Shown: piece after piece, positions 6,439 through 32,437 of the stretch
Position numbering within the stretch: position 1 is the first letter of the stretch
How the letters are laid out: each line of letters starts with the position of its first letter
DNA from: an uncultured Bacteroidia bacterium
GTDB lineage: Bacteria > Bacteroidota > Bacteroidia > Bacteroidales > UBA932
Direction: 5' to 3'
Length of the DNA: 64,000 nucleotides
NCBI GenBank assembly: GCA_902792815.1
Contig: CADBAY010000011.1
Span: 19,456-83,455 of the forward strand
The notes under the pieces: model-generated
The model's input: the letters and a program-made list of their open reading frames with translations, nothing else
The model's database searches: none
Told to the model about the DNA's origin: nothing
Position numbers and translations under genes: made by a program

Positions 6439-7221
6439 CTCAAACAAATAACCTATGCTTTCGCCCGCATTGCACACGGTGACGTTGTCAACTATGCCCC
6501 TACGGCACACAAGTGCAACGCAACGCAGGTTCCCGCTCCCAGCCGCCAGGGAGAACGACGCCTCAAATACTTCTCCTCCACCTCTGAAAACAACAGGACT
6601 CTCCTCCCAGAAGCGCAGCACATCGTTATGCACATAGTCGCCGGAGGCCCCTGTCTGCGGAGCGACAATCCCATCTTCGAGCACCAGCAGGGCCAAGTTG
6701 TACTCTCCGTTGCGAACGGCGGTAGCCTCCACCTCCACATTCAGCACGGCGTCTTCCAGTGTGCTTTGGATCTTCAGTCCCGCCGCCTTGCCCCGCACCT
6801 TGAGCAAGCGGTCGCAGTGCGAGAGCAGCAGATCCGGCGAAGATGTGGTAATGAGCGATGAACCATCAAGGTCAACAACCGCCGAAGGATAGGCGGTAAT
6901 GCCAAAACGCGAGACAAGAGAGCTGCTCCACGGTTCAAGGCTCATAGCATCGAGGCAATGCACGCCCACGCTCACGATGCGCCCGGGACGCAGTTGCTGC
7001 GCCTGTACTACGGCCGCCTGCATCTTGGGACAATGGACGCACCAGGTACCCGTAAAATCCAGCACCAGCGAGCGGCGGAAGTATTCATCACCCTCTCCCG
7101 CCCAAGGATCGGGGGAAGGATTGTCGGGATTATCGATGGGAACGGGTTCAGGATCGTCCTTCTGGCCCACGCAGGAGAGCATGGGCAGCAGGCAGCAGAG
7201 TATGATAATCCACTTTTTCAT
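6433..7221 (-). CDS. Thioredoxin-like lipoprotein (Omp28-related type)
   Basis: A 262-residue lipoprotein with a lipobox at Cys17 (MLSC), a Pro/Asp-rich linker, and a thioredoxin fold whose active site is WCVHCPKM (Cys61-Cys64). The C-terminal half is a beta-rich domain like that of Omp28-related outer-membrane proteins of Bacteroidota. The frame is open to 7293 but the start at 7221 gives a proper signal peptide (MKKWIIILCC) and overlaps the upstream DUF6029 stop by one base (TGATG), a coupling signal. With the other two genes of this operon it makes a thiol-redox plus outer-membrane barrel set; the redox partner protein is not known. Confidence 0.85.
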   Translation of the reverse strand: MKKWIIILCCLLPMLSCVGQKDDPEPVPIDNPDNPSPDPWAGEGDEYFRRSLVLDFTGTWCVHCPKMQAAVVQAQQLRPGRIVSVGVHCLDAMSLEPWSSSLVSRFGITAYPSAVVDLDGSSLITTSSPDLLLSHCDRLLKVRGKAAGLKIQSTLEDAVLNVEVEATAVRNGEYNLALLVLEDGIVAPQTGASGDYVHNDVLRFWEESPVVFRGGGEVFEASFSLAAGSGNLRCVALVCRRGIVDNVTVCNAGESIGYLFEK

Positions 7222-14685: not shown

Positions 14686-14692
14686 AAGGGTG

Positions 14693-14700
14693 CAAATATA
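14693..14700 (-). promoter_or_regulatory. Promoter -7 box for the DUF5686 gene
   Basis: CAAATATA on the plus strand (TATATTTG on the minus strand), 7 nt upstream of the ATG at 14685. It suggests transcription separate from the upstream SusC-SusD operon. Confidence 0.5.
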
Positions 14701-14744
14701 GCAATTTCCCACGGAGATTTGCTCAAAAAGAAGAATAATCGGTA

Positions 14745-16166: not shown

Positions 16167-16171
16167 TTCTT

Positions 16172-17170
16172 TCAATATTCAAACTGGAAGAGCACAGGAT
16201 TGTGGTCCGAAAGATACGGAAGGCCATAATTGGACCCTTCTACCCAATACTTCCCCGGCTTGAGGGACTTACAGCCGTAATAGATATGGTCTATTATGCT
16301 GCTGCTCTTGCCGAAACCGTTGAAAGTGGCGCTGTTCCGATCGGTGCCGGAGCCCGTCAGGCGGGCATACTCCATACTGTCGTTCAACGGCTTAAGTTCG
16401 CTTGAATCGGAGGTGGTGTTGAGGTCGCCCACATGGATTATCAACTTTGAAGAGTTCTTCAGGTCGGTCTCCTTGGTGAGGGCTTTCATCTGCGAGACCA
16501 TAAGCTCAGCCGAATTCTTGCGGGCATCGGCACTCTTGTGATCGTAGTGGGTCGGGAAGAAATAGACAAGTGCATCGTTGTTCTTCTTGTCTTTAAGGAC
16601 CACATAAACGGTGACCCTCCGGCAGGCCGAATTCCAGGCGCCGTATGTGCCGTCGGCATTCTTGGCGGGTATTTGGCGCGTAGAATTGTCGAGCCAGAAG
16701 AAGTCTTTCTGCACCAGTTCGAAACGGCTTTTCAGGTACATTATTCCAACACCTTCCCCGCCTGCATTTGCCACCGACGAGCCGGAAGAGCTGTCACGGC
16801 ACACATCGTAATAACCGTATTCCGAATTGAAATACGACGACGAGAAGAAGTTGGACTGCTCCTTGCGCACTTCCTGCAAGCCTATCAGGTCGGGCTTGGC
16901 GGTATCGATGAACTGCTTCACCGCCGGAGCGCGAACCGACCAGGCCGCGCTGCTGCCATTTGGATAAGTGTCGGCGGTATTGGCATAACGGATGTTGAAA
17001 GTACATATCGTCATGCTTGCCGTACCGCCCGGAGTGTCGGGTTCTTCCGGTTCCGGGGTCACAGGAGCGGGAGGCGGGGTAACCGGATTCACTACATCCT
17101 TGGGCACGCAGGCAATAAAGGCTGCGTGCACCAGGATGAGCGATAAAAACAATCTAATGGATTTTGTCAT
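16172..17170 (-). CDS. Endonuclease/exonuclease/phosphatase (EEP) family lipoprotein
   Basis: A 332-residue lipoprotein with lipobox AFIAC (Cys21), a Pro-rich linker, then a DNase I-like EEP domain. The catalytic landmarks are present: CTFNIRYANT (Asn), GLQEVR (Glu), VGDLNTTSD (Asp and Asn) and the final SDHNPVLF (Asp-His). Family members cleave phosphodiesters in nucleic acids, sphingomyelin or phosphoinositides; which one applies here cannot be decided. Its position behind SusC, SusD and a PKD/propeller lipoprotein, and in front of an SGNH esterase, suggests work on the ligand captured by the SusC-SusD transporter. Gaps to neighbours are 5 bp on each side. Confidence 0.9.
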   Translation of the reverse strand: MTKSIRLFLSLILVHAAFIACVPKDVVNPVTPPPAPVTPEPEEPDTPGGTASMTICTFNIRYANTADTYPNGSSAAWSVRAPAVKQFIDTAKPDLIGLQEVRKEQSNFFSSSYFNSEYGYYDVCRDSSSGSSVANAGGEGVGIMYLKSRFELVQKDFFWLDNSTRQIPAKNADGTYGAWNSACRRVTVYVVLKDKKNNDALVYFFPTHYDHKSADARKNSAELMVSQMKALTKETDLKNSSKLIIHVGDLNTTSDSSELKPLNDSMEYARLTGSGTDRNSATFNGFGKSSSIIDHIYYGCKSLKPGKYWVEGSNYGLPYLSDHNPVLFQFEY

Positions 17171-17175
17171 TATTT

Positions 17176-19068
17176 TTATTCCATTTTACAAGTCTTGCGG
17201 GGATTACCGCCAAGCTGCGACCATCCGTCCGCGGGAGCGGCCACGCCCTTCACTGCCGAGAGAGTAGGTTTGCCGTCCTTGACTCCGTTGCAGTAGATGG
17301 TGCCGTCGGGAGCGATGGTAGGCGAAGTACAGACACTCTGACCGAGAGTGATTTCCGCAATCTTGACTCCGTCAGGCCCGAGCTTGACCAGTTTGCCGGC
17401 GCTTTGGTCGGTGGCTGTCTCGTTATAATAGACATTGCCATTCTTGTCAACGGCAGGGCTGCCCATAACCTCGCCGCCGGCGGGAGTGTACCACTTCTTG
17501 GTTCCGTCGGGATTGACGGCGGTGATACCGGTCGTGGTGCTCACGTAGATGGTTCCGTCTTCACCGATAACGGTACCGAGGCTGTAGTACTGCTTGTTCT
17601 TACCGTCGAGGTCAAGACGCCACTCGTGAGTCGCTCCGGCTTCCTTGTCATACTTGCCAAGGTCGTAGCACATAAGTACGGCATCCGCCTCCGAACCGCC
17701 GGCGCCCTCGGCCTTGCCGAAGAGGATGTACACCTTATTGCTGCCGTCGATGGCCATGTAGCTGGTGAAACCTATCTCGGTATTGGTCTGGCCGATGTAG
17801 CCGAGCATGAAGGCGTTCTGTCCTGCGGCTGCGCCGTAGTACTTCCAGCCGTCACCCTCTTTCCAGTACACACGGGTACCGTACTTGCTGTCGGTATGCA
17901 CCATGAAGGTCTCTTCCTTGGTTGCGGCAAGTCCGCCGTGCGAACCACGCTTTACCTGGAGATATCCGGCGTACGAGCCGTCACCCTTGTAGAGCAGGAG
18001 TCCGTTGTCGCCGGAACCCGAAGGCCAGAGCTCAGGGAAGTCGGCAGGTGCAGGATTACGCTTGGTAGCAACGAAGATGTGGTCGTTCAGAACCAGAGGT
18101 ATGACATTGCAGAACCAGCCATAGCCATAAGCATAGTACCATTTCTGCGTGCCGTCCGGATTGACTGCATAGATACCGGACTCATAGGTCCTGGTCTTGT
18201 CCTGGGTATCCTTGTTACCCACGATCACGAACACGGTACCGTCTGCATCTACCGAAGGAGTGCAGGAAGAGAAGTTCTTGGTGGTGCCGGGGTTGTGGCT
18301 GCCGGCATCGAAACTCCATTTCTTCTCTCCGTCCTTGCCGATTGCAACCAGATGCAGGCCGCTGGAGAAGGCGTAAATGGTATTTCCGTCGGGGCTTACG
18401 GCAGGTGAAGAGAATATCACGTCGCCGTCGCCGTCGTACGAATTGGACCACAGGAGTTCGATAGAGGCCTCGCTCTTTTCTACGTGGACGGTCTTTGTGA
18501 CGGAGCCCTTGCCCCTCTGGTTGTCGGTTACGGTGAGAGTAACTTCGATGTCGCCGTACTCGTTGAACGTGAACTTGGGATTCTGCTCCATAACCGTGTT
18601 GGCGCCGATCCTCCACTCCCAGCCGATAATCTTGCCGTCAGGGTCGGTGGACTTGTCGGTGAACTGCACCTCGTCGCCTGCGGTGATGCCGCTGGACGGG
18701 CTGTAGTCGAAGTCAGCTATAGGACGTTTGTTGGTGTCCTGTACGGTGATGGTCTTGGTGCAGGTGCCGCTGACACCGCTGTTGGTGACGGCGGTGAGCT
18801 TGATTTCCTTCTCGCCCGGAGTATCGAACGACAAAGGAGTTTCCAGCTGCTTGCCCCACACATACTCGGAGCCCCATTCCCATTTGCACGCAACGATAAT
18901 GTCGTTGGTGGCGGTGGAAACGTTGGTTATCTTGATATCCTCGTATATCTCGTACACATCCTTGTCGGTGGTAAAGTCGGCGTTGACCGACACCTTGGGC
19001 TTGTTCAGGCACGAGGCCGCAGCGAGCAAGGCTAGAGAAATGAGGAGTAATCTGTTAACTCTTTTCAT
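17176..19068 (-). CDS. PKD-domain lipoprotein with PQQ-like beta-propeller
   Basis: A 630-residue lipoprotein (lipobox AAASC, Cys20). Two PKD domains occupy roughly residues 28-110 and 112-195 (each with the WEWG/WEWR-type core strand and a TKTVxV ending). Residues from about 200 to 630 form a repeat-rich beta-propeller of the PQQ-binding-like type, with recurring blades such as SPAVSPDGNTIYAFS, TPSVDADGTVFVI and SPTIAPDGTIYCNG. It is probably a surface protein that binds ligand for the SusC-SusD pair, in the position usually held by SusE/SusF-type proteins. Same operon, 18 bp after susD. Confidence 0.88.
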   Translation of the reverse strand: MKRVNRLLLISLALLAAASCLNKPKVSVNADFTTDKDVYEIYEDIKITNVSTATNDIIVACKWEWGSEYVWGKQLETPLSFDTPGEKEIKLTAVTNSGVSGTCTKTITVQDTNKRPIADFDYSPSSGITAGDEVQFTDKSTDPDGKIIGWEWRIGANTVMEQNPKFTFNEYGDIEVTLTVTDNQRGKGSVTKTVHVEKSEASIELLWSNSYDGDGDVIFSSPAVSPDGNTIYAFSSGLHLVAIGKDGEKKWSFDAGSHNPGTTKNFSSCTPSVDADGTVFVIVGNKDTQDKTRTYESGIYAVNPDGTQKWYYAYGYGWFCNVIPLVLNDHIFVATKRNPAPADFPELWPSGSGDNGLLLYKGDGSYAGYLQVKRGSHGGLAATKEETFMVHTDSKYGTRVYWKEGDGWKYYGAAAGQNAFMLGYIGQTNTEIGFTSYMAIDGSNKVYILFGKAEGAGGSEADAVLMCYDLGKYDKEAGATHEWRLDLDGKNKQYYSLGTVIGEDGTIYVSTTTGITAVNPDGTKKWYTPAGGEVMGSPAVDKNGNVYYNETATDQSAGKLVKLGPDGVKIAEITLGQSVCTSPTIAPDGTIYCNGVKDGKPTLSAVKGVAAPADGWSQLGGNPRKTCKME

Positions 19069-19086
19069 AATCTTTTACTTTAAGGG

Positions 19087-20910
19087 TTACCAGCCGGGGT
19101 TCTGCTTGAGAGCTTCATTCTTCTGGATGACGTTCTCGGGAACCGGGTAAATGTACATATTGTCGTTCCACTTGCGGGGCATTTCATAACCCAGCAGGTA
19201 GCCGCCTGAAGGATCGTCGGCAATCTTGACAGCCTTCTGATGATCGTTAAGTGTCATGGCGATGGCCTTATATGTGCCGTTCTTCTGATAATTGGCATCA
19301 GCGGTCACGTACACGTCGTTCTCGCCGTCGCCGTTCAGGTCGACAGGAGTGTCGAGCCCCGGAATGTAAACGCCGTCCCAGGGAGCGTTCTGCCAATCGG
19401 CACCGCAAGCCCAGCGCTTAAGGTCGTCCATACGGAAGCCCTCGAGTATAAGTTCGATGGCCCTGTCGCGGCGCACCTCAAGAATGACGGGATTGGTCAC
19501 GTTGGGGTAGAAAGTCTGCTGCAGATAGGTATCCACCACTGTGGGGAGCTTGTCAAGGTCTCCTCCGGAGATACCTGCCCTGCGGCGCAGGGCGCCGATA
19601 GTTTTGCTCCAGTCATCCGCGGTGATGGATCCCAGCTCGGCCTTGGCCTCGGCGTAGTTGAGCAGAACCTCGGCATAGCGCAGCAGCGGCACGTCGTTGT
19701 CGTTGGAACGGGCGTTGTCGTAGTTCACATCGTCCATGACATACTTGGTGTACTGGTAGCCGGTGAGCGAAAGGCTCATGTCGGGGCTGGTACGGACATA
19801 CTTGCCGCTCTTGTCCTTGCGGGTGTAATCGGCTCCGCGTATGGTCTGGCAAAGGCGGGCGTCACGGCCGGTGGTCTCTTCGACGAAGGTCTTGTACGCG
19901 CCGTTGGCTTTCTTCTCGTTGTAGATGGAGCCGTCTTCGTTCAGGTAAGTCTTGGCGAAAGCACGGGTCATCGAGAGGTGAGGGCCGTAAGAAGTGGAAT
20001 TGTAATACCAGTTGGCCTCGCCGAGCACCGAAAGGTCTTTGCTCTGCGTGTAGGCAAGCATCACTTCTTCGGTCACAGGGTTGTCGCTGATGAACAGGTC
20101 GCGGTAGGCCCCGCGGCCACCCGACTCATAAACAGTACCGGTGTGGAGCTTGTAAGGGCCTTCGTCCATAACCTTCTTGGCAGCCTCTGCAGCGGCCTTC
20201 AGCAGTTCATCGGCGGTGATGGTGCACCCCTCAAGGTACTGGGCGCCATACTTGCTTCCGTTTGCGTGATATTTGCGGAAAGTTCCTTCGAACAGGCAGA
20301 TACGGCTCTTGATAGCAAGGGCGGTCCACTTGTTTACGGTATTGGAGTAAGGAGTGATGCCGGTTACCGTAATGTTATCCGCAGCAAAATCCAGGTCTTC
20401 GATGATGTTGGTAATGATAACATCACGGCTGTCCTGAGTCTTGTACAGATCTTCATCGACGGGGTCGAGAGGTTTACTGATCCAAGGCACTTTACCATAG
20501 GTAACGAGCTTGTCGTAGTAGAGCAGGGCGCGGAACAGACGGGCAATGCCGGTATAGTTGTTGCGCACCTCTTCAGGCACTGTAGGATCGGTATTGTACT
20601 GTATGAAGTAGTTTACGTTACGGATGCTGCCCCAGCTCCAGGACGTGGAAGTGCTGACGGTATATGCACCCTGCTCGTAGGTACCGATGTTCATCTTTGC
20701 CGAGTGGTCATGCATCACATTGATTCTGTGAGCATTGCTATAGTCGGGCAGATAGTTGTAGAAGCCGTAGACATAGTTGCGCAGACCTGACTCGTCGCCG
20801 AAGACTATAGCCCTTCCGGCCTCGGCCTGGGGCGCCTCGGTAAGGTCGCAGCCGACTGCTGTGAGGCCCAGTGCAACGAATGCTGTAAGAATGTAGAATA
20901 TGTTTTTCAT
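19087..20910 (-). CDS. RagB/SusD family nutrient-binding outer-membrane lipoprotein
   Basis: A 607-residue SusD-like protein. The signal peptide runs MKNIFYILTAFVALGLTAVGC with the lipid-anchored Cys in the AVGC lipobox. SusD-family features are present: the N-terminal helical TPR-like region, the LRYAEVLLNYAEAKAELG motif in the C-terminal third, REVRRDRAIELILEGFR-like helices (seen as LEVRRDRAIELILEG), and the usual GDLDKLP/FYPNV region. It should form a lid over the SusC barrel and bind an oligosaccharide, peptide or other large nutrient. It follows susC after 15 bp. Confidence 0.95.
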   Translation of the reverse strand: MKNIFYILTAFVALGLTAVGCDLTEAPQAEAGRAIVFGDESGLRNYVYGFYNYLPDYSNAHRINVMHDHSAKMNIGTYEQGAYTVSTSTSWSWGSIRNVNYFIQYNTDPTVPEEVRNNYTGIARLFRALLYYDKLVTYGKVPWISKPLDPVDEDLYKTQDSRDVIITNIIEDLDFAADNITVTGITPYSNTVNKWTALAIKSRICLFEGTFRKYHANGSKYGAQYLEGCTITADELLKAAAEAAKKVMDEGPYKLHTGTVYESGGRGAYRDLFISDNPVTEEVMLAYTQSKDLSVLGEANWYYNSTSYGPHLSMTRAFAKTYLNEDGSIYNEKKANGAYKTFVEETTGRDARLCQTIRGADYTRKDKSGKYVRTSPDMSLSLTGYQYTKYVMDDVNYDNARSNDNDVPLLRYAEVLLNYAEAKAELGSITADDWSKTIGALRRRAGISGGDLDKLPTVVDTYLQQTFYPNVTNPVILEVRRDRAIELILEGFRMDDLKRWACGADWQNAPWDGVYIPGLDTPVDLNGDGENDVYVTADANYQKNGTYKAIAMTLNDHQKAVKIADDPSGGYLLGYEMPRKWNDNMYIYPVPENVIQKNEALKQNPGW

Positions 20911-20925
20911 TGCTGTTCCTCCTTA

Positions 20926-23900
20926 TTATTTGTCTATATGTCCGAAGGTAACTTTCACACCGACACTGATACTCTTCATCGTCGGGAAGTTGTATCCGTC
21001 ACCGGTGGTTTCAAGCACGCCGTCGGCGCCGTAGATATTAGCGGTCACGTCAACATCGCGGGTCCACTTGTAAACCGGCGACCAGGTCCAGAGGTTCTCG
21101 CCCGCCACGAACACGGAGACCTTCTGAAGGCCGGCCTTGCGGGTAATCTTCTCGGGGATGTTGTAACCTATCTGGACGCTCTTGAGGCGTATGTAAGAAG
21201 CATCCTGCAGATACCTTGTATTGGCATTCACGCGGCCTTTGTAGAAAGGAGCGAAGTAACCGGTGTAAAGAGGCAGGTACGCGTTGGGATTCTCGGGAGT
21301 CCAGTAATTTCCCAGGTGCCAGGAAGGCATCTGGTTGTAAGGCCTGTTGTACATGCCCCAGAAAGCGGAAGACTCGTTGTCGGGATACCAGTCCTGTTTG
21401 CCCACGCCCTGGAAGAATGCGTTGGCGTAGATACCGGCCCACTCCACATCGAAACCGAAGGAATAGATGTAGCGGGGCTCGCTGTTACCGATGATTTTGC
21501 GGTCGCCCGGATCGTCGGCGGTGTTCTTGCCGCGGTCGATATATCCGTTCTTGTTAAGATCCACGAAGTGCATCTGGCCGGGAAGTATGTTATAGCTTTC
21601 GGTCTGCTGCATCAAGGGGTTGTAGTGAGCCTGTCCGGCTGCTGCCGCCATAGCTTCGTCGGCATCGATCTGGGCCTGGTTCTGATACAAGCCGTCGCAC
21701 TCGAAGCCCCAAAGCTCTCCGAGCACCATACCCTCGTAGTATGAATTATTGTAGGCATTGTTGCTCAGCGACTTGAGGGCGTTGTTGTATTTGTCGATGA
21801 CAGAATAATAGTCGGCCAGGGTGGCGTGGACGCCGTACTTGAAGGGATGTCCTCCAAGCTTTATGGCATCGTCCCAGCCGAGAGTGATTTCAAAGCCGCG
21901 GGTGGTCATTTCGGCAAAGTTGCCCTTAGGCGAACTGGCGCCGTATACATCGGGGAGGGTAGGTCCTACGGTGTACATATTCAGGGTCTTACGTACATAC
22001 ACGTCGCCGGTGAAATTCAGCCTGCCGGAGAACAAACTCAGGTCAATTCCTCCGTCAATGGTCTGGGCCGTTTCCCAGGTCAGAGACTCGGGGATAGGGG
22101 CGGGAGCGCTGGTGTAGCGTACCTTCTGGCCGTTGATAATGCGGCCGTTATCGAAATCGAAGGTTTCATCGTAAGCATAAACGCTGACGTTACTGTTGCC
22201 GAGCGAACCGTAGGATGCGCGGATCTTGAGGTTGGAAATGATGCTCTGGTCGATATTGAACCAAGGTTCCTGGCTCACCCTCCAACCGGCGCTCACCGAG
22301 GGGAAGAATGCCCAGCGCTGACGGGCGGGGAACTTGGACGAGCCATCGTAGCGGCCGTTGATCTCGAGCAGGTAGCGCTCCGCGAAGTTGTAATTGAAAC
22401 GGAAGAAAGCACCGGCCGTACGCCATTTGCTGTAGTCGCTGGTAATGCTCTTGTTGTCAAGGCCGAGTGCCAGGTTGAGCTGGTCCACATTAGGGGCAAG
22501 CAGGCCGTCGTTGTACGCATAGACATTGCGGTATGTCTGCTGCTCGTAGTTGTAACCGAGCAGGGCCTTGAAGTTGTGCTTGCCCACCGTATCCTCCCAC
22601 TCGATCCACTCGTTGGTGGCAAGGTAATCGTAAGTGCGGAGAGTTTCGCTGATGTAGTCGGCAAGGCCCTTGATTTCCGCGAGCGACTCTATAATGCCTT
22701 CATACCTTGAGAAGGGTGAAGGAAGACGGTGAACATGGGTATCGTACGAGCGGGCCCTGTAGGTAAAGTCGGCGTTCAGGCGCAGGCGCTTGTCGAAGAA
22801 TGTGGCCTTGGCGGCCACGGTGTTCTGCGCCTGGCGGTTGGTGTAAGTACGGTTGCTGCCGCCGTAGAGGATATCACCTACCGAATACACGCCGCTGTAG
22901 GACAGGGTGCCGTCGGGGTTGATGATGGGCGAGCAGGGGTGCCCTTCGTCGGCGATGTTACGCCAGATGTTGCCGCCGGCCTCGCTCTGGGTCTCAGGCA
23001 TCACGTACTTGCTGTAGGCGATGTCGGTGTTGGATGTGATCTTGAGCCAGGGAGTAACCTGGTAGCCCACCTTCACACGGCCGTTGTAGAGCTTATAGGA
23101 GTCGGGGTTCACCTGGCTGTCGAACAAACCGTTGTTGTCGTAGAGTCGGGCAGAGACATAGTAATCGAATTTGTCGTCCGCTCCCGAGATGGACAGGTTG
23201 TGGGTCTGGGTGAAGGTAAAGTCCTTGTACAGGGCGTCGTAGTAATCGGTTCCTTTATGGAAATACAGCCAGCGGCCTTTGGTGATAAGGGAGCCGTCGG
23301 AAACCAGGGTTTCGTAATTCCCGCTTTCATGCCTCAGGCGATATTCGTCGAGCCATGCCGTGGTGAAGTCCATGGTCTTGTTGATGGCGGTAGGATTACT
23401 GCCCTTGTAGTTGTACCATGCCTTGTAGAAGTGCTCGGCCCACACATAACCGTCTGACACCACGTCAGGCATTGCGGTCGGCCTTTCGAAAGAAAGGTTG
23501 GTCTGGTAGCTGACGGTGGCGGTGCCCTTCTTGGCGTTTTTGGTGGTGATGAGCACAACGCCGTAAGGAGCCCTGGATCCGTAGATAGCCGAAGAGGCGG
23601 CGTCTTTGAGCACCGACACGCTCTCGATATCGTTAGGGTTCAGGAGGCTGGCGTTGCCTTCCACACCGTCGATGAGCACAAGCGCGCTGCCGCCTTGTCC
23701 GATAGAGGTTCTTCCTCGGATGTTGAACGACGGCGAAGAGTTTGGACGGCCGTCGGTAAACTTGAGGTTGAGGTTGGCCACGCGGCCCTGGAGCATCTGC
23801 GCCAGGTTGGCGTTGGGACGGCCGTCAAAGGTTTCGGCCCCCACCTGGTCGACCGCACCGGTAAGGTTGGCCTTCTTTTGAGTACCGTAACCTACGACCA

Positions 23901-24234
23901 CCACCTCGTCGAGCAGTTCGTCGTCGGAAGAGAGAGTAACATCAATCCTCGATCGGCCGCGTACCGGTATTACCACGGTCTTAAAACCGATGCTCTGAAT
24001 TGAAAGGGAAGCGTTGGAAGGAACAGTGATGGTATAATTACCGTTCAGGTCGGTAGCCACACCGGTAGTTGTCCCCTCCACCATTACACCAGCACCTATA
24101 ACCGGAGCCCCCTGATCGTCAAGGACCTTACCGGATACGGTGACCTTGCCGGTGCCCTGTCCCTGCCCCTGGGCAAATGCCGGAGCGGCGATGAACAGTA
24201 ACACCAGCAGCAACAGTATGCTTTTGGCTTTCAT
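20926..24234 (-). CDS. SusC/RagA family TonB-linked outer-membrane transporter
   Basis: A 1102-residue outer-membrane receptor. A signal peptide ending PAFAQ is followed by a CarboxypepD_reg-like domain (about 30-105), the SusC signature DEVVVVGYGTQKKANLTGAV-type segment before the plug (about 105-125), a TonB plug (about 125-230, with FNIRGRTS) and a C-terminal barrel of some 850 residues. It imports a bulky nutrient in a TonB-dependent way together with the SusD partner. The ligand is not evident: no glycoside hydrolase is present in this operon, only an EEP phosphodiesterase and an SGNH esterase. A TATATTTG promoter box lies 31 nt upstream of the ATG. No adjacent sigma/anti-sigma or hybrid two-component regulator was seen. 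Confidence 0.96.
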   Translation of the reverse strand: MKAKSILLLLVLLFIAAPAFAQGQGQGTGKVTVSGKVLDDQGAPVIGAGVMVEGTTTGVATDLNGNYTITVPSNASLSIQSIGFKTVVIPVRGRSRIDVTLSSDDELLDEVVVVGYGTQKKANLTGAVDQVGAETFDGRPNANLAQMLQGRVANLNLKFTDGRPNSSPSFNIRGRTSIGQGGSALVLIDGVEGNASLLNPNDIESVSVLKDAASSAIYGSRAPYGVVLITTKNAKKGTATVSYQTNLSFERPTAMPDVVSDGYVWAEHFYKAWYNYKGSNPTAINKTMDFTTAWLDEYRLRHESGNYETLVSDGSLITKGRWLYFHKGTDYYDALYKDFTFTQTHNLSISGADDKFDYYVSARLYDNNGLFDSQVNPDSYKLYNGRVKVGYQVTPWLKITSNTDIAYSKYVMPETQSEAGGNIWRNIADEGHPCSPIINPDGTLSYSGVYSVGDILYGGSNRTYTNRQAQNTVAAKATFFDKRLRLNADFTYRARSYDTHVHRLPSPFSRYEGIIESLAEIKGLADYISETLRTYDYLATNEWIEWEDTVGKHNFKALLGYNYEQQTYRNVYAYNDGLLAPNVDQLNLALGLDNKSITSDYSKWRTAGAFFRFNYNFAERYLLEINGRYDGSSKFPARQRWAFFPSVSAGWRVSQEPWFNIDQSIISNLKIRASYGSLGNSNVSVYAYDETFDFDNGRIINGQKVRYTSAPAPIPESLTWETAQTIDGGIDLSLFSGRLNFTGDVYVRKTLNMYTVGPTLPDVYGASSPKGNFAEMTTRGFEITLGWDDAIKLGGHPFKYGVHATLADYYSVIDKYNNALKSLSNNAYNNSYYEGMVLGELWGFECDGLYQNQAQIDADEAMAAAAGQAHYNPLMQQTESYNILPGQMHFVDLNKNGYIDRGKNTADDPGDRKIIGNSEPRYIYSFGFDVEWAGIYANAFFQGVGKQDWYPDNESSAFWGMYNRPYNQMPSWHLGNYWTPENPNAYLPLYTGYFAPFYKGRVNANTRYLQDASYIRLKSVQIGYNIPEKITRKAGLQKVSVFVAGENLWTWSPVYKWTRDVDVTANIYGADGVLETTGDGYNFPTMKSISVGVKVTFGHIDK

Positions 24235-24679: not shown

Positions 24680-25696
24680 TTATTTGCGGAAGAGGCCGAA
24701 GACGGAGGAGCCGGAGCCGGACATGGCGGCGTAGGAGGCGCCGCGGCGGTAGAAGTCGGCAATGAGGGCGGGGATTTCGGGGTGGCGGGGGCAGACGGTG
24801 GCTTCGAAGTCGTTGACGACGAGGCCGCGCCATTGCTCGACAGGGAGTTTCAAGGCTTCCCGGAGGGGTAGGAGATTCTTCGACTCGCTTTGCTCGCTCA
24901 GAATGACAGCGGACGGAGACTCAGCGATGGCAGCAGTGCCGGCGGTTCCATACCGACCCTGGTCATTACGTGCCGGCACTTCCGGGCTCGCAGCAGCGGC
25001 GTCCTGCCGACTCTGGCCCTTACGAACAGGAGGCTGGATGCCGCTGCTGCAATCCAACCAACGCCAGCGATCGCGCGGAACTATGCCGCCGTAAGCCTCC
25101 CTGGTACTCACGGCCACAGGCTTGCCGTCCGGCCCGAGAGGAATCTCCACCCGGAGCTCATAGCCCGACAGGTCAATGTCGAAAGGTTCCAGCACCTCTC
25201 CCCTGCCGGTAGCGAACATCGGCCGGCAATAAAACAAAGCGTCAGCGACCGGGAGCGTCTGAGGGTTGGTAGTGCCGACAAAAAACGCGCAATCAGAACC
25301 AAGGCGCGCAGCATAGGCGGCGAGAGCGGCATCTGAAAGCCCCAGCTCCCCGATCTCATTAAGAGCACGAAGCATAAAGGCCGCATCGGCACTGCCGCCT
25401 CCGAGCCCGGCCCCCACAGGGGCGAACTTTTGCAAACCTATACGCACAGGAGGCAACTGCGGGAAATCGGCCTTCAGAAGCCGCCAGGCACGCACCGTCA
25501 GGTCGTCCATCGGGTCCCAGTCCACTCCTTCCGCCCGCTCAATCTCGATAGAAAGCTCCGCCGCGGGCTCCACATCCAGCACATCTGCCCAACCATAGTA
25601 CGGCACGAACAGCGTCTCGATGTCGTGGAAGCCTTCGGGACGGCGGCGCAGGACATTGAGCCCGACGTTCACTTTGGTGCAGGTGCGCAGAATCAT
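24680..25696 (-). CDS. ispE: 4-diphosphocytidyl-2-C-methyl-D-erythritol kinase with in-frame insertion
   Basis: A 338-residue GHMP kinase of the MEP isoprenoid pathway. Family motifs are KVNVGLNVLRRRPEGFHDI at the N-terminus, the ATP loop PVGAGLGGGSADAAF (about 93-107) and the C-terminal SGSGSSVFGLF. Typical IspE is 260-290 residues. Residues about 217-275 (24872-25048) are an extra low-complexity segment between AYGGIVPRDR and LKLPVEQW that contains ILSEQSESKN, a known translation of a dispersed AT/GC repeat, and an 11-bp inverted repeat. The reading frame stays open, so the enzyme may still fold with a surface loop. It is the last gene of the psuK-suf unit, overlapping sufD by 4 bp. Confidence 0.88.
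   Translation of the reverse strand: MILRTCTKVNVGLNVLRRRPEGFHDIETLFVPYYGWADVLDVEPAAELSIEIERAEGVDWDPMDDLTVRAWRLLKADFPQLPPVRIGLQKFAPVGAGLGGGSADAAFMLRALNEIGELGLSDAALAAYAARLGSDCAFFVGTTNPQTLPVADALFYCRPMFATGRGEVLEPFDIDLSGYELRVEIPLGPDGKPVAVSTREAYGGIVPRDRWRWLDCSSGIQPPVRKGQSRQDAAAASPEVPARNDQGRYGTAGTAAIAESPSAVILSEQSESKNLLPLREALKLPVEQWRGLVVNDFEATVCPRHPEIPALIADFYRRGASYAAMSGSGSSVFGLFRK
24868..25050. repeat. Repeat-derived insertion inside ispE
   Basis: The segment includes a dispersed-repeat sequence (TTCGACTCGCTTTGCTCGCT, then CAGAATGAC) at about 24874-24905 and a perfect 11-bp inverted repeat GCAGCAGCGGC (24990-25000) / GCCGCTGCTGC (25040-25050). It matches the extra residues of the IspE protein. Confidence 0.65.
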
Positions 25697-26262
25697 AAGG
25701 CTCGGTTAAGCACAGGCGCGAGGAAGGCCTCCACCTGCATTGCTCGCGCTTCATCCTCGGGAATGCCGCGGCTGCGCATATAAAACAGTTCTTCAGGATT
25801 GAGATATCCGGTAGTAGCGCCGTGCGAACACTGCACATCGTCGGCATAAATCTCCAGCTGCGGCCGGGCCTCGCAGAAAGCGCCCTCGGAGAGCAACAGA
25901 GAGTGGCACTGCTGGTGCGCATCGGTCTTGACGGCACCGGGAGCCACGTACACAAGACCGTCGAATTCGGCCCTCGCGCTCCCACTCACCACGCCCTTGA
26001 AAAGCTGCTCCGAATGGCACCCGGGAGCATTATGGCGCACAATTACCTGCAGCCGGACATTCTCCGAGCCGCTGCAGCGCCAGGCCCCCGCAAGGTCGAG
26101 CGAAGCCCCGGGACCGTCGAGATGGAACTCCAGCGCCCGCTCGCAGCTCACGCCCTCGGGAACGATGAGAGTCAGATGCAGCTGCTCGCCACTCTCCAGA
26201 TGAGTCACCGCCGGGAGCGGATCGCGCCCGACTACGCACACCAATTTATCCGTTGATGCCAT
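25693..26262 (-). CDS. sufD: Short SufD-like Fe-S cluster assembly protein
   Basis: A 189-residue cytoplasmic protein matching the C-terminal beta-helix and helical end of SufB/SufD (motifs [28 protein letters not shown], read here in shorter pieces: [20 protein letters not shown]). Canonical SufD is above 400 residues; the N-terminal part is absent and upstream sequence is occupied by sufC, which it overlaps by 17 bp. With SufB and SufC it would form the SufBC2D scaffold that builds Fe-S clusters. The short form could be a natural reduced SufD or a truncation; the intact motifs and tight operon packing favour a functional short form. Confidence 0.85.
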
Positions 26263-26998
26263 CGTACCCTTGTTTTTCGATCAGGTCAACAAGCTCGCGT
26301 CCGCCGGTACTGACGATGCGCCCGTCCTTGAGCACATGCACCACGTCCGGAACTATGTACTCCAGCAGGCGCTGGTAGTGAGTAATAACTATAGATGCAG
26401 TCTCGGCAGTGCGCAGACGGTTCACGCCGTCCGCCACTATGCGCAGGGCGTCCACATCGAGGCCGCTGTCGGTCTCGTCCAGAATACTCAGCACAGGCTC
26501 AAGCATCGCCATCTGGAAAATCTCGTTGCGCTTCTTTTCGCCGCCGGAAAAGCCCACGTTCACCTCTCTCTTGGCAAATTCGCCCTTCATCTGCACCAGG
26601 GCCATCTTTTCCTTCAGGAGCTTAAGGAACTCCGCGGGCTTTAGCTCGCTCTCGCCTGCAGCCTTGCGCCTGGCGTTGAGAGCGGCTTTCATAAAGTTGG
26701 TGATGCTCACCCCGGGAATCTCCACCGGATACTGGAAGCTCAGGAATATACCTGCCCAGGAGCGCTCCTCGGGAGGCATGGCGAGCAAGTCGCGGCCGGC
26801 ATAAGTCACTGAGCCCGAGAGCACTCTGTAGTCCGGCCGTCCGGCCAGGACCGCGCTCAGGGTTGACTTTCCAGCCCCGTTGGGCCCCATAACTGCATGC
26901 ACCTCGCCGCGGCGTATGGTAAGGTTCACGCCTTTGAGGATTTCACGTCCTTCGATTCCGGCGTGCAGGTCTTTTATTTCAAGTAGAATGTCTGACAT
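26246..26998 (-). CDS. sufC: Fe-S cluster assembly ATPase SufC
   Basis: A 250-residue soluble ABC ATPase. Walker A is GPNGAGKST, the signature motif is [10 protein letters not shown] and Walker B is [12 protein letters not shown], the last being typical of SufC. It drives conformational change of the SufBCD scaffold. In most Bacteroidota sufC directly follows sufB; here a 3.4-kb trifunctional enzyme gene and pnuC lie between them. It begins 10 bp after that gene and overlaps sufD by 17 bp. Confidence 0.96.
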
Positions 26999-27008
26999 AA
27001 ATGCTTAT

Positions 27009-30000
27009 TTAGAACCCCAGCACCGCTGCTATGGGATAATGGTCGGAGATATAGGGTTTACCCTCGAAGCTCCGGTCCACCACGTAGAACTCACGTGCTG
27101 AAGAGAAGCCTCGGTAGTAGATGTAATCGATTATTTTGGCGCGGGTTGCGCCATACCCGTTAAACGACGGCTTGTCGCTGGTGACGGGCGCCTGGAGACG
27201 CGCGTCAAGCATCTTGCCCTCAAGGCTAAGAAGGCACTCGTCCCCCGGCTCCACGTTAAAGTCGCCGGTAAAGATGAGAGGCACCCCGGGGGTCATTTCC
27301 TCAACACGGTCCACAACCATAGAGAGTCCGCGCTTGCGTGCTTCCACTCCCCTGTGGTCGAGATGGGTGTTGACGAAGTAAAACTCCCTGCCGCTGCTGC
27401 GCTCCCGCAGTTTAGCCCATGTGGCGGTACGGGGATACTTGGCATCCCAGCCCACCGAAGGCACGCCGGGAGTCTCCGAAAGCCACCAGGTGCCGCCGTC
27501 AAGCAGCTCAAGGACATCGGTACGGTAGAACACCGACATCCTCTCGCCCGCGTCCTTACCGTCGTCACGGCCCACGCCGAAGCCTTTGTATTCGGGGCAA
27601 TTCTGCAGAATGAATGCTTCCTGCTCGGGATAGGCTTCCTGGATGCCGAAAACATCGGGCCTCTCGCTGCGCAGCATTGCGGCAACGGCCTCGCGCCTCT
27701 GAGGCCAGGAGTTCTCGCCGTCCTTGGCCCCGGCATTGCGGATGTTGAACGACATAACCTTCAGTCCTACAGCCTCCAGAAGCACTTTTTCAATCACTTT
27801 ATACCCGGCAAGGTTGGGATGCACGGAGTCTAAAGCATAAGCGGGATCAAGAGCTCCGTCAGGGGTGCGGAGTGCTGAATGATAATCGGCGAGCGGAATG
27901 TTGTGCCCGGCCGCATAATCCTTGATCAAGCCGTTGAGCTGCTCTATCTGCGGCCTGGGGTCACCCAGTTGCTTGCGCCAGCCTATGGTGCCGGCGGGGC
28001 AAAGGGTGCAGAGAATCGGTTTGATGCCGTTGACGCGGGCAAGTTCCACCATCGACACGATATTGCCGAAGCAGTTCTCGACCGATATATAACCGTTGTT
28101 GCGTGCAATATCGTTGGTGCCTATGAGGAGTGCCATGTATTCCGGATGCAGGTCGATCACGTCCGGCCTGATACGCGAGAGCAGCTGAGCGGTGGTCTGC
28201 CCGCTGATACCGCGGCCCACGAAGCCGTGCTCCTCCAGCCACTGATGGTCAAGCCTCTCCCAGTTCCAGGTAATAGAGTCGCCGAACAGCACCATCTTGG
28301 GTGCGGAGGTCATTTCGGCATTTTGCTTTTCGTAAACTCCGTACTGGGGCCAGTCGGAATCGGTCTTCTGCCAAGGCTCGGGAGTGCTGCGCAAAATCGC
28401 CGCCCAGCCGCCGCCAGGGGCCATTTTGATACTGATTCTGCCCCCCTCGGGGAAATCAAGCCACTGGTGCTTGTAGTCCCTCGCCGCCCTGTGGGCGTTG
28501 GCCCCGTCGGCGAAGACTTCCAGCAGCGGCGTCCCCTCTATGAAGGAAAGGTCGAGGGTCATTTCCCTCTCGTTCCAGTCGGTAAGGGCGCCTATGTACC
28601 AAGTATCGCCCTTGCGGCGCGCAATAGCCACATATTCGCCCGCCTTGCCTTCAAGCGCACGGGTTTCATCCCACACAGTGGGCACTTCGGCAATGAATTT
28701 AAGGCACTCGCGCTCTTTTTTGTAATTGGACGGCGAGTCGCAAAGCATGGTGAGAGGCGCGTCGAAGATGACGTACTCGGCCAGCTGACGGCAGCGGGTC
28801 CCCTGCGACATAGCCTCCGAACTCACGTAGCGGAAATTACCCTTGGTGGCATTGCGCATAGCTCCCTGCGTATAGTCGCAAGGCCCGGCGACAAGGCGCA
28901 CGAAGGGGATGCTCACCTCGTAAGTAACGAGATCAATATCGTAAGGCTTCTGGCCCTTGGCGTTCTCCAGGCCGTACACGCCCTCGAAGTTCACCACGTT
29001 GGGCCAGGTGCGCTGGAGTCCCGCTGGCTTGAAAGCTCCGTGGAAATCGACCATCAGGTGATAGCGCGCGGCGGTTTCGGCTGTACGGCGGTAGAAATCA
29101 ACCATGGGCTGGTCGTCGCGGTCCATAAAGTCGACCTTGAAGCCCTTGACGCCCATCGCTGAATATTCGCGGCAAGCGCGCTCCATATCCTTTTCGAACG
29201 CCCAGTAGCCGGCCCAGAGTATGAGCCCCACGCCACGCTCTCCGGCATATCGGCAGAGCTCCGGAAGATCTATCTCGGGCACCACCTGGAACAGGTCGGC
29301 CTGTTTATTTACCGCCCATCCCTCGTCAAGAATAACGTATTCTATGCCGTTGCGGGAAGCAAAGTCGATATAGTATTTGTACGTGTCGTTGTTGACTCCG
29401 GACTTGAAATTAACTCCGTACACGTTCCAGGCGTTCCACCAGTCCCAGGCCACTTTGCCGGGCTTTACCCAGCTGAAATCGACTCCCGGATCCCTCTCGC
29501 GCCCGAGCAGCCAGGGAAGGTCGCAGGTCAGAAGGTCTTTATCTTCTTTGGAAACTACTACGATACGCCAAGGGAAAGCCTCGCCGGCATCAGCCTTGGC
29601 GATATAGTCCTCGCGCGAGCGCACAAGGCCCTGGAGCATATTGTGGCCGCCCTGCTCGATATCTTTTGGATATGGAGCGAACACGGCCTCGAGGCTAGTG
29701 TCGCCGTCCTCGTTGGAAAGATACATTCCGGGATAGTTCAGCAGGTCGCTCTCGGTGATGCAGATCTTCATTCCCCCGGGCCCGTCCAGAGTGACGGGAA
29801 GGAAGGCGAGGCGGCCCTTCTCCCATTTGCTTATTTCGGTGCGGGTATAAGTAGATTCGAAAGAGGTAAAGAACTGGCACTCAAAGCTATCGTTGCTTTT
29901 ACGTGTATATGGCACGAATGCCTTGCAGTCGCGCCCGATATTGAATGCCGCCTGCTCGCCGTTAACCTTGAAGGGGGCTTTGCGGTCGGCCACAAAACGG

Positions 30001-30383
30001 TAAGCGGCACCCTCGTCGTAGGCGCGGAATACTATCGAATAGCCCTTACAGCGGAGCGTAAGTTCATTATATGCCTCCTTAACCTGAGCCTGGCGGTACA
30101 CGACAGGCGCAAGAATGCTGTTTACGCTGCTCTTGACGGCCTTTTTAACTTTGACGTCCTTGCCGAACACGGTGCCGTCGTCAAGAGTCATGCTAAGCGG
30201 CGAGGGCTCGATGATGGCAGAGCCGCACATCTTCACCGACCAAAGGGTCTGCGGACCAGCCGAAATATCTATGGCAAGCTCTCCTGAAGGAGACAGGAGC
30301 TTGTACGTCTTGACAGCCGCCCCGGCAGGGAACGCCGTTAGCGCAAGGAGCAGGGCAGCTATTATTAAACGCCTGATTTTCAT
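27009..30383 (-). CDS. Three-enzyme fusion: GH97 glycosidase + SGNH hydrolase + EEP phosphodiesterase
   Basis: A 1124-residue exported protein (signal peptide 1-22, ending AGAA). Residues 23 to about 665 are a glycoside hydrolase family 97 module: N-terminal beta-sandwich, catalytic barrel with AWDWWNAWNVYG, ILDEGWAV, GVKGFKVDFMDRDD and NFEGVYGLE, and a C-terminal sheet domain. The Asp in KVDFMD (418) points to the retaining GH97 subgroup, which includes alpha-galactosidases. Residues about 690-872 are an SGNH esterase (LFGDSIT, IGTNDIA, DSVHPN). Residues about 873-1124 are an EEP domain (MSFNIRNAG, GIQEAY, FTGDFNVE, SDHYPIAA). All three active sites look intact. It has no lipobox. It lies 12 bp after pnuC and 10 bp before sufC, inside the suf unit. 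Confidence 0.93.
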   Translation of the reverse strand: MKIRRLIIAALLLALTAFPAGAAVKTYKLLSPSGELAIDISAGPQTLWSVKMCGSAIIEPSPLSMTLDDGTVFGKDVKVKKAVKSSVNSILAPVVYRQAQVKEAYNELTLRCKGYSIVFRAYDEGAAYRFVADRKAPFKVNGEQAAFNIGRDCKAFVPYTRKSNDSFECQFFTSFESTYTRTEISKWEKGRLAFLPVTLDGPGGMKICITESDLLNYPGMYLSNEDGDTSLEAVFAPYPKDIEQGGHNMLQGLVRSREDYIAKADAGEAFPWRIVVVSKEDKDLLTCDLPWLLGRERDPGVDFSWVKPGKVAWDWWNAWNVYGVNFKSGVNNDTYKYYIDFASRNGIEYVILDEGWAVNKQADLFQVVPEIDLPELCRYAGERGVGLILWAGYWAFEKDMERACREYSAMGVKGFKVDFMDRDDQPMVDFYRRTAETAARYHLMVDFHGAFKPAGLQRTWPNVVNFEGVYGLENAKGQKPYDIDLVTYEVSIPFVRLVAGPCDYTQGAMRNATKGNFRYVSSEAMSQGTRCRQLAEYVIFDAPLTMLCDSPSNYKKERECLKFIAEVPTVWDETRALEGKAGEYVAIARRKGDTWYIGALTDWNEREMTLDLSFIEGTPLLEVFADGANAHRAARDYKHQWLDFPEGGRISIKMAPGGGWAAILRSTPEPWQKTDSDWPQYGVYEKQNAEMTSAPKMVLFGDSITWNWERLDHQWLEEHGFVGRGISGQTTAQLLSRIRPDVIDLHPEYMALLIGTNDIARNNGYISVENCFGNIVSMVELARVNGIKPILCTLCPAGTIGWRKQLGDPRPQIEQLNGLIKDYAAGHNIPLADYHSALRTPDGALDPAYALDSVHPNLAGYKVIEKVLLEAVGLKVMSFNIRNAGAKDGENSWPQRREAVAAMLRSERPDVFGIQEAYPEQEAFILQNCPEYKGFGVGRDDGKDAGERMSVFYRTDVLELLDGGTWWLSETPGVPSVGWDAKYPRTATWAKLRERSSGREFYFVNTHLDHRGVEARKRGLSMVVDRVEEMTPGVPLIFTGDFNVEPGDECLLSLEGKMLDARLQAPVTSDKPSFNGYGATRAKIIDYIYYRGFSSAREFYVVDRSFEGKPYISDHYPIAAVLGF

Positions 30384-30395
30384 ATCATTGACAAT

Positions 30396-30995
30396 CTATT
30401 CGTTTTGGGAGTATTTGCGCCTCCAGCCAATAAGCGACCAAATGCCGTTGGCAAGGTAAAGGGCGCTGACTATAGGCATGACGTACAGGCCGGAGCTGAT
30501 GTAGAGCACTATATTTGCCACATTCACCACAAGCCACACGATCCAGCACTCCCAGTACTTCCGGGCACTCAGGAACTGGGCCGTGAGGGTGAGCATCAGA
30601 ATGAAAGAATCAAGCAGTGGCTGCGGGTCCGGGGCGAAAACTTCGGGCCATCTCTGGGGGAGCCACTGCAGGGCCTTGGCCCAAAGTATGCCGCACAGCA
30701 CAACCAAGGTAAACATATTCACCCACTGCCAGGGCTTCATCTTGCCGATTTTCAAATCCCCCTTGGAGTTCTTCTCCTCCTCCTTGGGATGCGTCCAGCG
30801 CCAATGCCCGTAAAGGTTGATTCCGAAGGCCACCGGCTGCAGCAGCATTGCGCTGTACAGATGCTGCCGCCAGAACAGCACGAACAGGAACACATTGTAG
30901 ATGTATCCCACCCAGAAGTTGTACTTGGAGCCGCGGCCCGCAAGGAACACGCAGCTAAGGCCGAGTATGGCCGACACTATCTCTACCCAGCTCAT
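30396..30995 (-). CDS. pnuC: Nicotinamide riboside (mononucleoside) transporter PnuC
   Basis: A 199-residue inner-membrane protein with about seven hydrophobic helices. Features of PnuC are the early [13 protein letters not shown] region, the NLYGHWRW motif and the second-half [22 protein letters not shown] segment. It facilitates uptake of nicotinamide riboside or a related vitamin for NAD synthesis; subgroups take thiamine or riboflavin, so the substrate is probable rather than certain. Its start overlaps the sufB stop by 4 bp, so translation is coupled to an Fe-S assembly gene. Confidence 0.92.
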
Positions 30996-32437
30996 CCTAC
31001 AGCCCCCTCCAAAGACACGCTCAGCAGCTTCTGAGCTTCGATTGCGAATTCCATGGGCAGACGGCTCAACACCTCTTTGGCGTAACCGCCTACTATAAGG
31101 GCCGTCGCATCTTCGGGACCTATACCCCTCTGGCCGCAGTAGAAGAGCTGGTCGTCGCTGATCTTGGAAGTGGTGGCCTCATGCTCCACTACCGCCTGCG
31201 GGCAGAAATTCTTGATCACCGGGAAGGTATGGGCTCCGCACTGAGAACCTATCAGCAGAGAATCGCAGGACGAGAAATTCCTTGCTCCCACCGCGCAGGG
31301 CCCCATACGCACGAGGCCTCGGTAGCTGTTCTCGCTGTGCCCGGCTGATATACCTTTTGAAACTATGCGGCTGCGGGTCCCGCGCCCGAGATGTATCATC
31401 TTGGTGCCGGTATCGGCCTGCTGGTAATTATTGGTCATGGCTACAGAATAGAATTCCGAAGAACTGTAGTCCCCTTTGAGCACGGTGCTAGGGTACTTCC
31501 AGGTAATGGCCGAGCCCGTCTCTACCTGAGTCCAGCTCAGGTGCGAGCCCTCGCCGCGGCAAAGCCCCCTCTTGGTCACCAGGTTAAGTATGCCGCCGCG
31601 GCCCTGCGCATCGCCGGGATACCAGTTCTGGACGGTGCTGTATTTCACGTCGGCGTCTTTTTCCACTATTATTTCGACCACCGCGGCATGCAGCTGGTTG
31701 GTGTCGCGCATAGGGGCGGTGCAGCCCTCCATATAGCTCAGCTTCGCCCCCTCGTCGGCCACTATGAGAGTACGCTCGAACTGCCCGGTGCCGGCCGCGT
31801 TGATGCGGAAGTAGCTGCTAAGTTCCATAGGGCATTCGACCCCCTTGGGAACATAGCAGAACGAGCCGTCCGAGAACACTGCCGAATTGAGCGCCGCAAA
31901 GAAATTGTCCCCCGCGGGCACCACGGTGGCAAGGTACTTTCGCACCAGGTCGGGATGCTCTTTTACCGCCTCGGAGAAGGAACAGAAGATTATTCCTTTG
32001 TCTGAGAGAGTCTTGCGGAAGGTGGTGGCAACGCTCACCGAATCGAATACGGCATCGACAGCAACCTCCTTGGATTTCACTCCGGCAAGCACTTCCCTCT
32101 CCTTAAGGGGAATGCCCAGCTTGTCGAAGGTTTCCATAAGGGCAGGGTCGATCTCGGTAGGGCGCTCGCTGTCTTTAATGGGGGCAGCGTAATAGATAAT
32201 GTCTTGATAATCAATCTTTGGCATCTTGAGGTGCCCCCAACGGGGCTCCTTCATAGTCTGCCAGCGCCGGAAGGCGTCAAGCCGGAAGTCAAGCAGCCAC
32301 CCGGGCTCCCCTTTCTTGGCCGATATGAGGCGGATGATATCTTCGTTCAGACCCTTGGGTACATACTCCTGCTCGACGTCAGTCACGAAGCCTTGTTTGT
32401 ATTCTTGCTGCGCAAGGTCTTTAATCAGCTCGTCCAT
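30992..32437 (-). CDS. sufB: Fe-S cluster assembly protein SufB
   Basis: A 481-residue, full-length SufB. Motifs include [20 protein letters not shown], read as [17 protein letters not shown], then [33 protein letters not shown]-like [28 protein letters not shown] and the C-terminal [16 protein letters not shown]. It is the scaffold subunit on which clusters form, working with SufC and SufD. Starts 11 bp after psuG and overlaps pnuC by 4 bp. No SufS, SufE or SufU gene is present in this window. Confidence 0.97.

Follow-up and report, generated by a model that had tools for sequence, protein, structure and literature searches.

The stretch of DNA analysed here, called the window below, comprises 64,000 nucleotides of contig CADBAY010000011.1 from an uncultured member of the Bacteroidales (UBA932) whose genus we take to be Cryptobacteroides. 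Its minus strand carries the gene run sufB-pnuC-fusion-sufC-sufD-ispE, in which a single gene for a GH97 glycosidase, an SGNH/GDSL hydrolase and an EEP module stands between pnuC and sufC, within an operon for Fe-S assembly (suf). The frame is uninterrupted, with no internal stop across the 1124 codons of 27009-30383. Gaps of 10-12 bp separate the gene from its neighbours, which makes co-transcription with the suf genes probable. The Bacteroidota-type promoter pattern matched the window three times against 0.57 expected, and none of these matches adjoins the fusion gene.

Three enzyme modules in one reading frame

All five Pfam domain matches of the fusion protein exceed their curated cut-offs (Table 1), with Lipase_GDSL_2 (PF13472) matching residues 699-863 at 86 bits and Exo_endo_phos (PF03372) residues 877-1115 at 64 bits. 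The NCBIfam equivalog model NF053844, 'retaining alpha-galactosidase', covers residues 11-664 at 994 bits, the cut-off being 800. GH97 and SGNH are separated by a short linker, while SGNH and EEP meet with no linker at all, KVLLEAVG being followed directly by LKVMSFNIRN.

In the GH97 module, D418 is the predicted nucleophile and E467 the candidate acid/base. The SGNH block scheme consists of a Ser in the GDS block, a Gly, an Asn and an Asp-x-x-His, and S703, G728, N757, D852 and H855 occupy these positions. N880, E916, H1007, D1041, N1043, D1086, D1114 and H1115 correspond to the conserved N, E, H, D/N, D and D-H residues to which roles are ascribed in EEP enzymes. Conservation was counted in an alignment of 62 sequences, using only rows that cover more than 80% of a module (28 for GH97, 18 for SGNH, 32 for EEP), and 14 of the 15 catalytic columns are invariant. 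The D418 column is Asp in 28 of 28 rows, the five SGNH positions are conserved in 18 of 18, and seven of the eight EEP positions in 32 of 32. The N880 column is misaligned, 30 of its 32 rows being gapped, and an N-x-R motif is visible there wherever the 36-residue leader segments extend to it. D418 lies in the motif KVDF (416-419), which fits (K/M)(I/V)DF, given in PMC2670981 as the signature of retaining GH97 enzymes. An initial annotation, made from the sequence, had proposed one unbroken frame, three complete modules with their catalytic residues and a retaining-type Asp in GH97, and all of this is borne out. It made no mention of the gene's place in the suf operon, while the wider family of GH97-SGNH proteins and the many fusion partners of EEP and SGNH lie beyond what the window can show. 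The signature and the family model together mark the GH97 module as of the retaining alpha-galactosidase type, and we infer the corresponding activity. The SGNH module would be an O-acyl, probably acetyl, esterase.

Proteins of known structure match the modules one at a time. Over residues 29-662 the GH97 module aligns at 797 bits with BtGH97b/BT1871, presumably the protein in PDB chains 3a24 and 5e1q, sharing NF053844 and the retaining signature. The two chains differ at the residue aligned to D418, which we read as a nucleophile variant in 5e1q; with 641 and 655 aa, both lack SGNH and EEP, unlike the fusion protein. The GDSL-like proteins 3p94, 4iyj, 4ppy and 4hf7 align over nearly the whole SGNH module, but they are single-domain chains of 204-212 aa with no stated substrate, whereas the SGNH of the fusion is part of a multidomain chain. 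The EEP proteins 3g6s, 3mpr and 4c1r score about 150 bits against the EEP module and have N, E, H, D and N residues in common with it in the aligned part; the matches to 4c1r, named as a phosphatase, and to 3mpr span EEP residues 2-175 only, and these known proteins are not fused.

Residues 1-22, read by eye, contain an AxA site and no lipobox Cys. This reading favours export of the protein to the periplasm, which is likelier than full secretion; where the enzyme had been called secreted, the predicted signal peptide agrees, and periplasmic export is the likelier meaning.

Table 1. Features of the fusion gene and its neighbourhood (window positions; residues refer to the fusion protein)
Feature	Residues	Position	Strand	Basis or remark
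GH97-SGNH-EEP fusion gene	1-1124	27009..30383	-	single open reading frame (ORF), ATG to stop, 1124 aa + stop; same ORF in L038
Predicted signal peptide, signal-peptidase-I type	1-22	30318..30383	-	by inspection of sequence
GH97_N	30-293	29505..30296	-	Pfam PF14508, 171 bits
GH97 catalytic domain (Glyco_hydro_97)	302-568	28680..29480	-	Pfam PF10566, 340 bits
GH97_C	570-664	28392..28676	-	Pfam PF14509, 97 bits
GH97-SGNH linker	665-675	28359..28391	-	junction comparison
SGNH/GDSL module	676-873	27765..28358	-	Pfam PF13472; PDB 3p94 match over 676-873
EEP module	874-1124	27012..27764	-	Pfam PF03372; PDB 3g6s, 4c1r, 3mpr, 3l1w matches
sufB		30992..32437	-	Pfam/NCBIfam
pnuC		30396..30995	-	stop 12 bp ahead of fusion start
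sufC		26246..26998	-	start 10 bp past fusion stop
sufD		25693..26262	-	Pfam/NCBIfam; short form, as in mapped relatives
ispE		24680..25696	-	Pfam/NCBIfam; last of suf gene run
SusC		20926-24234	-	locus downstream of ispE
SusD		19087-20910	-	locus downstream of ispE

An independent copy and the distribution of the architecture

In a metagenome-assembled genome from yak omasum (G243, locus L038), an intact ORF of likewise 1124 aa, 91% identical to that of the window, again stands between pnuC and sufC. Purifying selection acts on all three modules: between the two genes, the ratio of nonsynonymous to synonymous divergence (dN/dS) is 0.073 for GH97, 0.092 for SGNH and 0.051 for EEP, at dS values of 0.48-0.76, EEP being the most constrained module (95% identity). 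An assembly error or a lost stop codon in one metagenome bin, which the draft state of this genome (48 contigs) might suggest, is therefore extremely improbable, since an independent assembly has identical ORF length and context and all modules are under selection; the fusion is real and not an artefact. A pseudogene was considered as well and rejected on the intact second copy and the low dN/dS.

GH97-SGNH by itself is an established two-module family. In the best 80 of 167 loci from a contig scan of relatives, the GH97 ORF runs on into SGNH in 12 (L038-L048 and L050, including the yak fusion) and from there into EEP in one, L038. The other eleven (L039-L048, L050) share the N-terminal architecture at 69-77% identity but end without an EEP module. 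L043 encodes EEP separately: its 871-aa GH97-SGNH gene overlaps by 4 bp with a following 275-aa EEP gene, whose product has a signal peptide and a lipobox-like Cys of its own. Beside the GH97-only gene of L049, an EEP-like region (7736-8588, minus strand) is spread over two frames and seems broken. Among the matches listed from 400 genomes of the genus, three have SGNH and EEP joined, namely those in this genome, in G243 and, without GH97, in G342; across 295 genomes of the order, the listing shows the pair in this genome only. At most 4 or 5 candidates were scored per genome in these searches, so misses are possible. A family search over 199 genomes, with up to three candidates scored in each, listed only the window's own match as covering GH97 together with SGNH or EEP.

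The domain order, put forward earlier as unusual, was thus found in two genomes only. It was not met in the titles and abstract starts listed for work on GH97 multidomain or rumen Bacteroidales enzymes, in a literature coverage that leaves out most subscription journals, and searches of the same coverage for a GH97-GDSL fusion and for a mannosyl-6-phosphatase in Bacteroides found nothing. The three-enzyme fusion is real and rare, was not met elsewhere in the material searched, and belongs to a genus in which fusions of such modules are common. Three long GH97 frames from the family search show GH97 fused to other glycosidases in the genus, as GH97-GH13 (L138:878-4516), GH97-GH3 (L139:275-4411) and GH97-GH92 (L140:747-4622).

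The pnuC-sufC site and the origin of the fusion

Among 101 genomes, 89 had a sufB match, and the 30 best-scoring loci were compared. pnuC is followed by sufC in 19 of them, including G244, and by a GH97 ORF in three (this genome, G243 and G224); the other eight have another arrangement or are cut off. G224 and G462 have a GH97-SGNH gene between pnuC and sufC, and a 3.7-kb contig of G514 shows pnuC, GH97-SGNH and, at its end, the first 37 residues of a gene for an organophosphate antiporter of the OPA group. The G303 insert (L264, L250, L204), a large locus for polysaccharide utilisation, holds GLUG-type proteins, GH127, GH97-SGNH, four calcineurin-type phosphoesterases (MPE), SusC, SusD, BACON, a separate EEP lipoprotein and OPA, in the order sufB-pnuC-...-GH127-[GH97-SGNH]-MPE-SusC-SusD-BACON-MPE-MPE-...-MPE-EEP-OPA-sufC. 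The locus of G488 (L265, L248) resembles it but lacks GH97-SGNH and GH127, and the right end of G349 is as in these two, with EEP immediately before sufC (L203, L253). In G342, pnuC adjoins sufC and a G303-type SusC lies downstream of ispE. The SusC of the suf-site locus is 88-91% identical among G303, G488, G349 and G342, with distant or partial matches only in this genome and G243. The pnuC-sufC gap is a recurrent insertion site in an Fe-S assembly operon (window 26998-30396, L264/L250/L204, L265/L248, L252, L168), occupied in some species by glycosidase genes or by a large SusC/D locus.

In the EEP tree, the fused EEPs, the suf-site EEPs of G303, G349 and G488 and the EEP of G342 form one clade (support 100), with the fused EEPs nearest that of G342 (support 77). 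The SGNH tree joins the fused SGNH to the two-module proteins at the suf site of G462, G224 and G514 (support 86; 80 in a smaller set). In approximately unbiased (AU) tests, a clade that unites the fused genes only with G462/G224/G514 is rejected by the GH97 data (p-AU 0.0016), and one with G202/G209 by the SGNH data (p-AU 0.027); a suf-site group that includes G303 is not rejected for either the fused GH97 (p-AU 0.41) or the fused SGNH (0.25). For both halves of the protein, an origin from suf-site genes is compatible with the data, and joining in place by deletion is therefore likely. A history as a mosaic of three sources was considered and dropped, since neither the GH97 nor the SGNH data reject the suf-site grouping once G303 is included. 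Sliding-window identity revealed no clear breakpoint.

A G303-like layout has both genes on one strand and in the right order; most simply, and probably, the gene arose where it now stands, between pnuC and sufC, by a deletion in such a layout. Loss of the DNA between a GH97-SGNH gene and the downstream EEP gene would have removed the lipoprotein leader of EEP and left the joined gene in the suf run. The fused EEP lacks the lipoprotein-type leader that most of the separate EEPs compared possess. Two observations weigh against this history. The best GH97 tree places the fused module with G202/G209, although weakly (support 31-33). In the suf-gene tree, the window and G243 group with G244 and G342 (support 65), and these nearest relatives have no insert at the site; pnuC is next to sufC in both, so the insert was gained or lost more than once. 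The SGNH-EEP protein of G342 (L157), which may or may not go back to the same fusion event, has the same module order but lacks GH97 and is not at the suf site; its SGNH is not sister to that of the window (60% identity), and its junction has about eight extra residues.

Substrate and alternative explanations

Neighbouring genes were counted for the 22 closest EEPs, those scoring at least 320 bits: 20 among the matches listed from 300 genomes, the two fusions included, and two from the 400-genome search (five of the 22 stretches end less than 2 kb from EEP and were retained). An OPA antiporter lies within 3 kb of EEP in 13 of them, at a distance of 7-38 bp in 11 and on the same strand in 12. 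Within the same distance, SGNH occurs in eight (three of them fused), a calcineurin-type phosphoesterase in eight and sufC in five. The 28 lower-ranked EEPs that were fetched have OPA once and SGNH, calcineurin-type phosphoesterase and sufC not at all; a SASA-type esterase lies within 3 kb in seven (fused in six) and GH27 in five. L043/L170 has GH97-SGNH, the overlapping EEP lipoprotein and OPA, and L153 has SGNH, EEP and OPA as three genes. This genome has an OPA homologue 63% identical to that of G303, directly after a GDPD gene. Four OPA proteins score 198-207 bits against the GlpT model TIGR00712 (cut-off 632.55), a similarity at the level of the OPA group only, and the antiporters tested match the GlpT, PgtP and Uhp models far under their equivalog cut-offs. 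As a separate observation, a GH20-SGNH gene of L257 is followed by an antiporter gene (6644-8034, plus strand) that reads as two neighbouring frames of 243 and 221 aa.

The OPA genes that neighbour the closest EEPs hint at an organophosphate as the product of EEP, and hence at phosphodiesterase action rather than full dephosphorylation. From these antiporters, the EEP module would be a metal-dependent phosphoesterase, for which a phosphodiesterase is more probable than a nuclease. The idea of a shared decorated, phosphorylated substrate, already voiced in the initial annotation, gains indirect support in the same way, in that unfused relatives of the modules adjoin phosphoesterases and an organophosphate antiporter.

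Our preferred reading, to which we give a probability of roughly 0.55, is that the gene was formed at the pnuC-sufC site and encodes a real, selected and exported trifunctional enzyme, whose modules would act on a single imported oligosaccharide or glycolipid fragment and remove from it alpha-galactose, an acyl ester and a phosphoester. GH97 would take off an alpha-galactosyl cap in the periplasm, SGNH would take off an acyl ester and EEP would cut a phosphoester; with the three steps in one periplasmic chain, intermediates need not diffuse between enzymes, a form of channelling. Part of the evidence points the other way. The nearest PDB entry with a stated activity for EEP, 4c1r, is a mannosyl-6-phosphatase, that is, a phosphomonoesterase, and an OPA gene is lacking within 3 kb of nine of the 22 closest EEPs. 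Neither a calcineurin-type phosphoesterase nor an antiporter gene adjoins the fusion gene, and its neighbours are pnuC and sufC rather than SusC/SusD. The window's own SusC/D genes (19087-24234) are set apart from it by sufC, sufD and ispE, and that SusC (20926-24234) matches the G303 SusC weakly. The partners of EEP elsewhere in the genus are also varied, and EEP may therefore say little about one shared substrate: it is fused to GH13 (L141:2033-4774) and DUF6259 (L142:2857-5793), both in this genome, and to GDPD (L147), GH3 (L233), DUF4861 (L237), a PF00756 esterase (L240), GH78 (L242) and SASA (L219, L228, L232), while the SGNH family is fused to GH20 (L257).

These fusions argue for module shuffling without a joint substrate, in which EEP and SGNH would be general de-decorating modules that share a chain for co-expression and export only. 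We regard this as the less probable account, though one to be taken seriously. The fusion is one striking case of a genus habit of joining EEP and SGNH to many partners; the SGNH family is also joined to GH27, an unrelated alpha-galactosidase (L155, L159, L161, L162), and to a GxDLY-SGNH protein (L158). Shuffling alone does not readily account for the recurrence of the set of alpha-galactosidase, esterase and EEP with different families, as SGNH-GH27 beside EEP (L155, L159) and as a GH27 gene within 2 kb of SASA-EEP (L218, L219, L221, L228; on the opposite strand in L219), nor for the OPA, SGNH and MPE neighbours that the closest EEPs share and the lower-ranked ones nearly lack. Side by side with this, the SASA-EEP proteins near GH27 (738-745 aa) in these four loci are a second route to the same three activities.

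A narrower form of the preferred reading makes the substrate a teichoic-like polymer or glycerophospho-glycolipid, from which alpha-Gal, an ester (D-Ala or acyl) and a glycerol phosphodiester would be removed in turn, with glycerol-3-phosphate imported by OPA. The antiporters of GlpT/PgtP/Uhp type beside EEP genes, the position of this genome's OPA homologue after a GDPD gene, the EEP-GDPD fusions (L147 and L256) and the four calcineurin-type phosphoesterases of the G303 locus are all in its favour. It nevertheless seems unlikely to us in this specific form, with the OPA scores so far below the glpT cut-off; GH127-like and GH78 neighbours of relatives accord no less with a plant glycan, a phospho-glycolipid from plants is another fitting candidate, and no Bacteroides teichoic-acid locus appeared in the titles and abstract starts listed by the literature search. 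Least probable of the functional alternatives is a deletion scar with residual function, the remnant of a collapsed utilisation locus in which only GH97-SGNH would count and EEP would be carried along as a passenger. The site does hold GH97-SGNH alone in G224 and G462 and the large locus in G303 and G488, and the locus SusC, so similar in G303, G488, G349 and G342, is distant or partial in this genome and G243; but the would-be passenger shows the strongest constraint of the three modules and has intact catalytic residues. More speculative than the preferred reading is an extension to a nutrient system of this rumen genus for an undescribed alpha-galactosylated, acylated phosphodiester compound, whether teichoic-like or a phospho-glycolipid. 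Such a system would exist in three arrangements made up of different families (GH97-SGNH-EEP, SGNH-GH27 beside EEP, and GH27 beside SASA-EEP), be condensed into one chain in the suf operon in the window lineage, and feed its organophosphate to a dedicated antiporter; we hold this to be improbable as a whole.

Glycosidase-esterase fusions that act on glycans are already known, and the chain described here adds a phosphoesterase-like module. According to PMC8417218, CE15-GH8 of Bacteroides eggerthii likewise has an esterase and a glycosidase in one chain; it differs in its families, in that no phosphoesterase is named and in belonging to a large polysaccharide utilisation locus (PUL), whereas the fusion gene lies in a suf operon. 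Like multicatalytic enzymes of PUL type, the fusion protein has at least two catalytic domains in one chain. For the GH97 relative BT1871, PMC11501099 states that it is needed for the use of raffinose-family oligosaccharides. Where relatives have the modules as separate genes, the arrangement suggests a common pathway with an organophosphate antiporter as one of its members. Should the modules all act on one substrate, a phosphorylated, acylated alpha-galactoside would be a rumen nutrient, and the fusion a ready test protein for it. The genus also offers a natural series of separate genes, two-module and three-module proteins for studying the origin of fused enzymes, including a gene inside an Fe-S assembly operon.

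Two other parts of the window touch on this subject. Downstream of ispE, the SusC/SusD locus (12121-24234, minus strand) also holds genes for a PKD protein and a second EEP (16172-17170); the latter is followed immediately by a gene for a GDSL-like esterase (14745-16175) and then by one for a DUF5686 protein. At 44365-46272 (minus strand) lies a gene for a 636-aa nucleoside-hydrolase-like protein, a homologue of which adjoins the SGNH-EEP fusion gene in G342.

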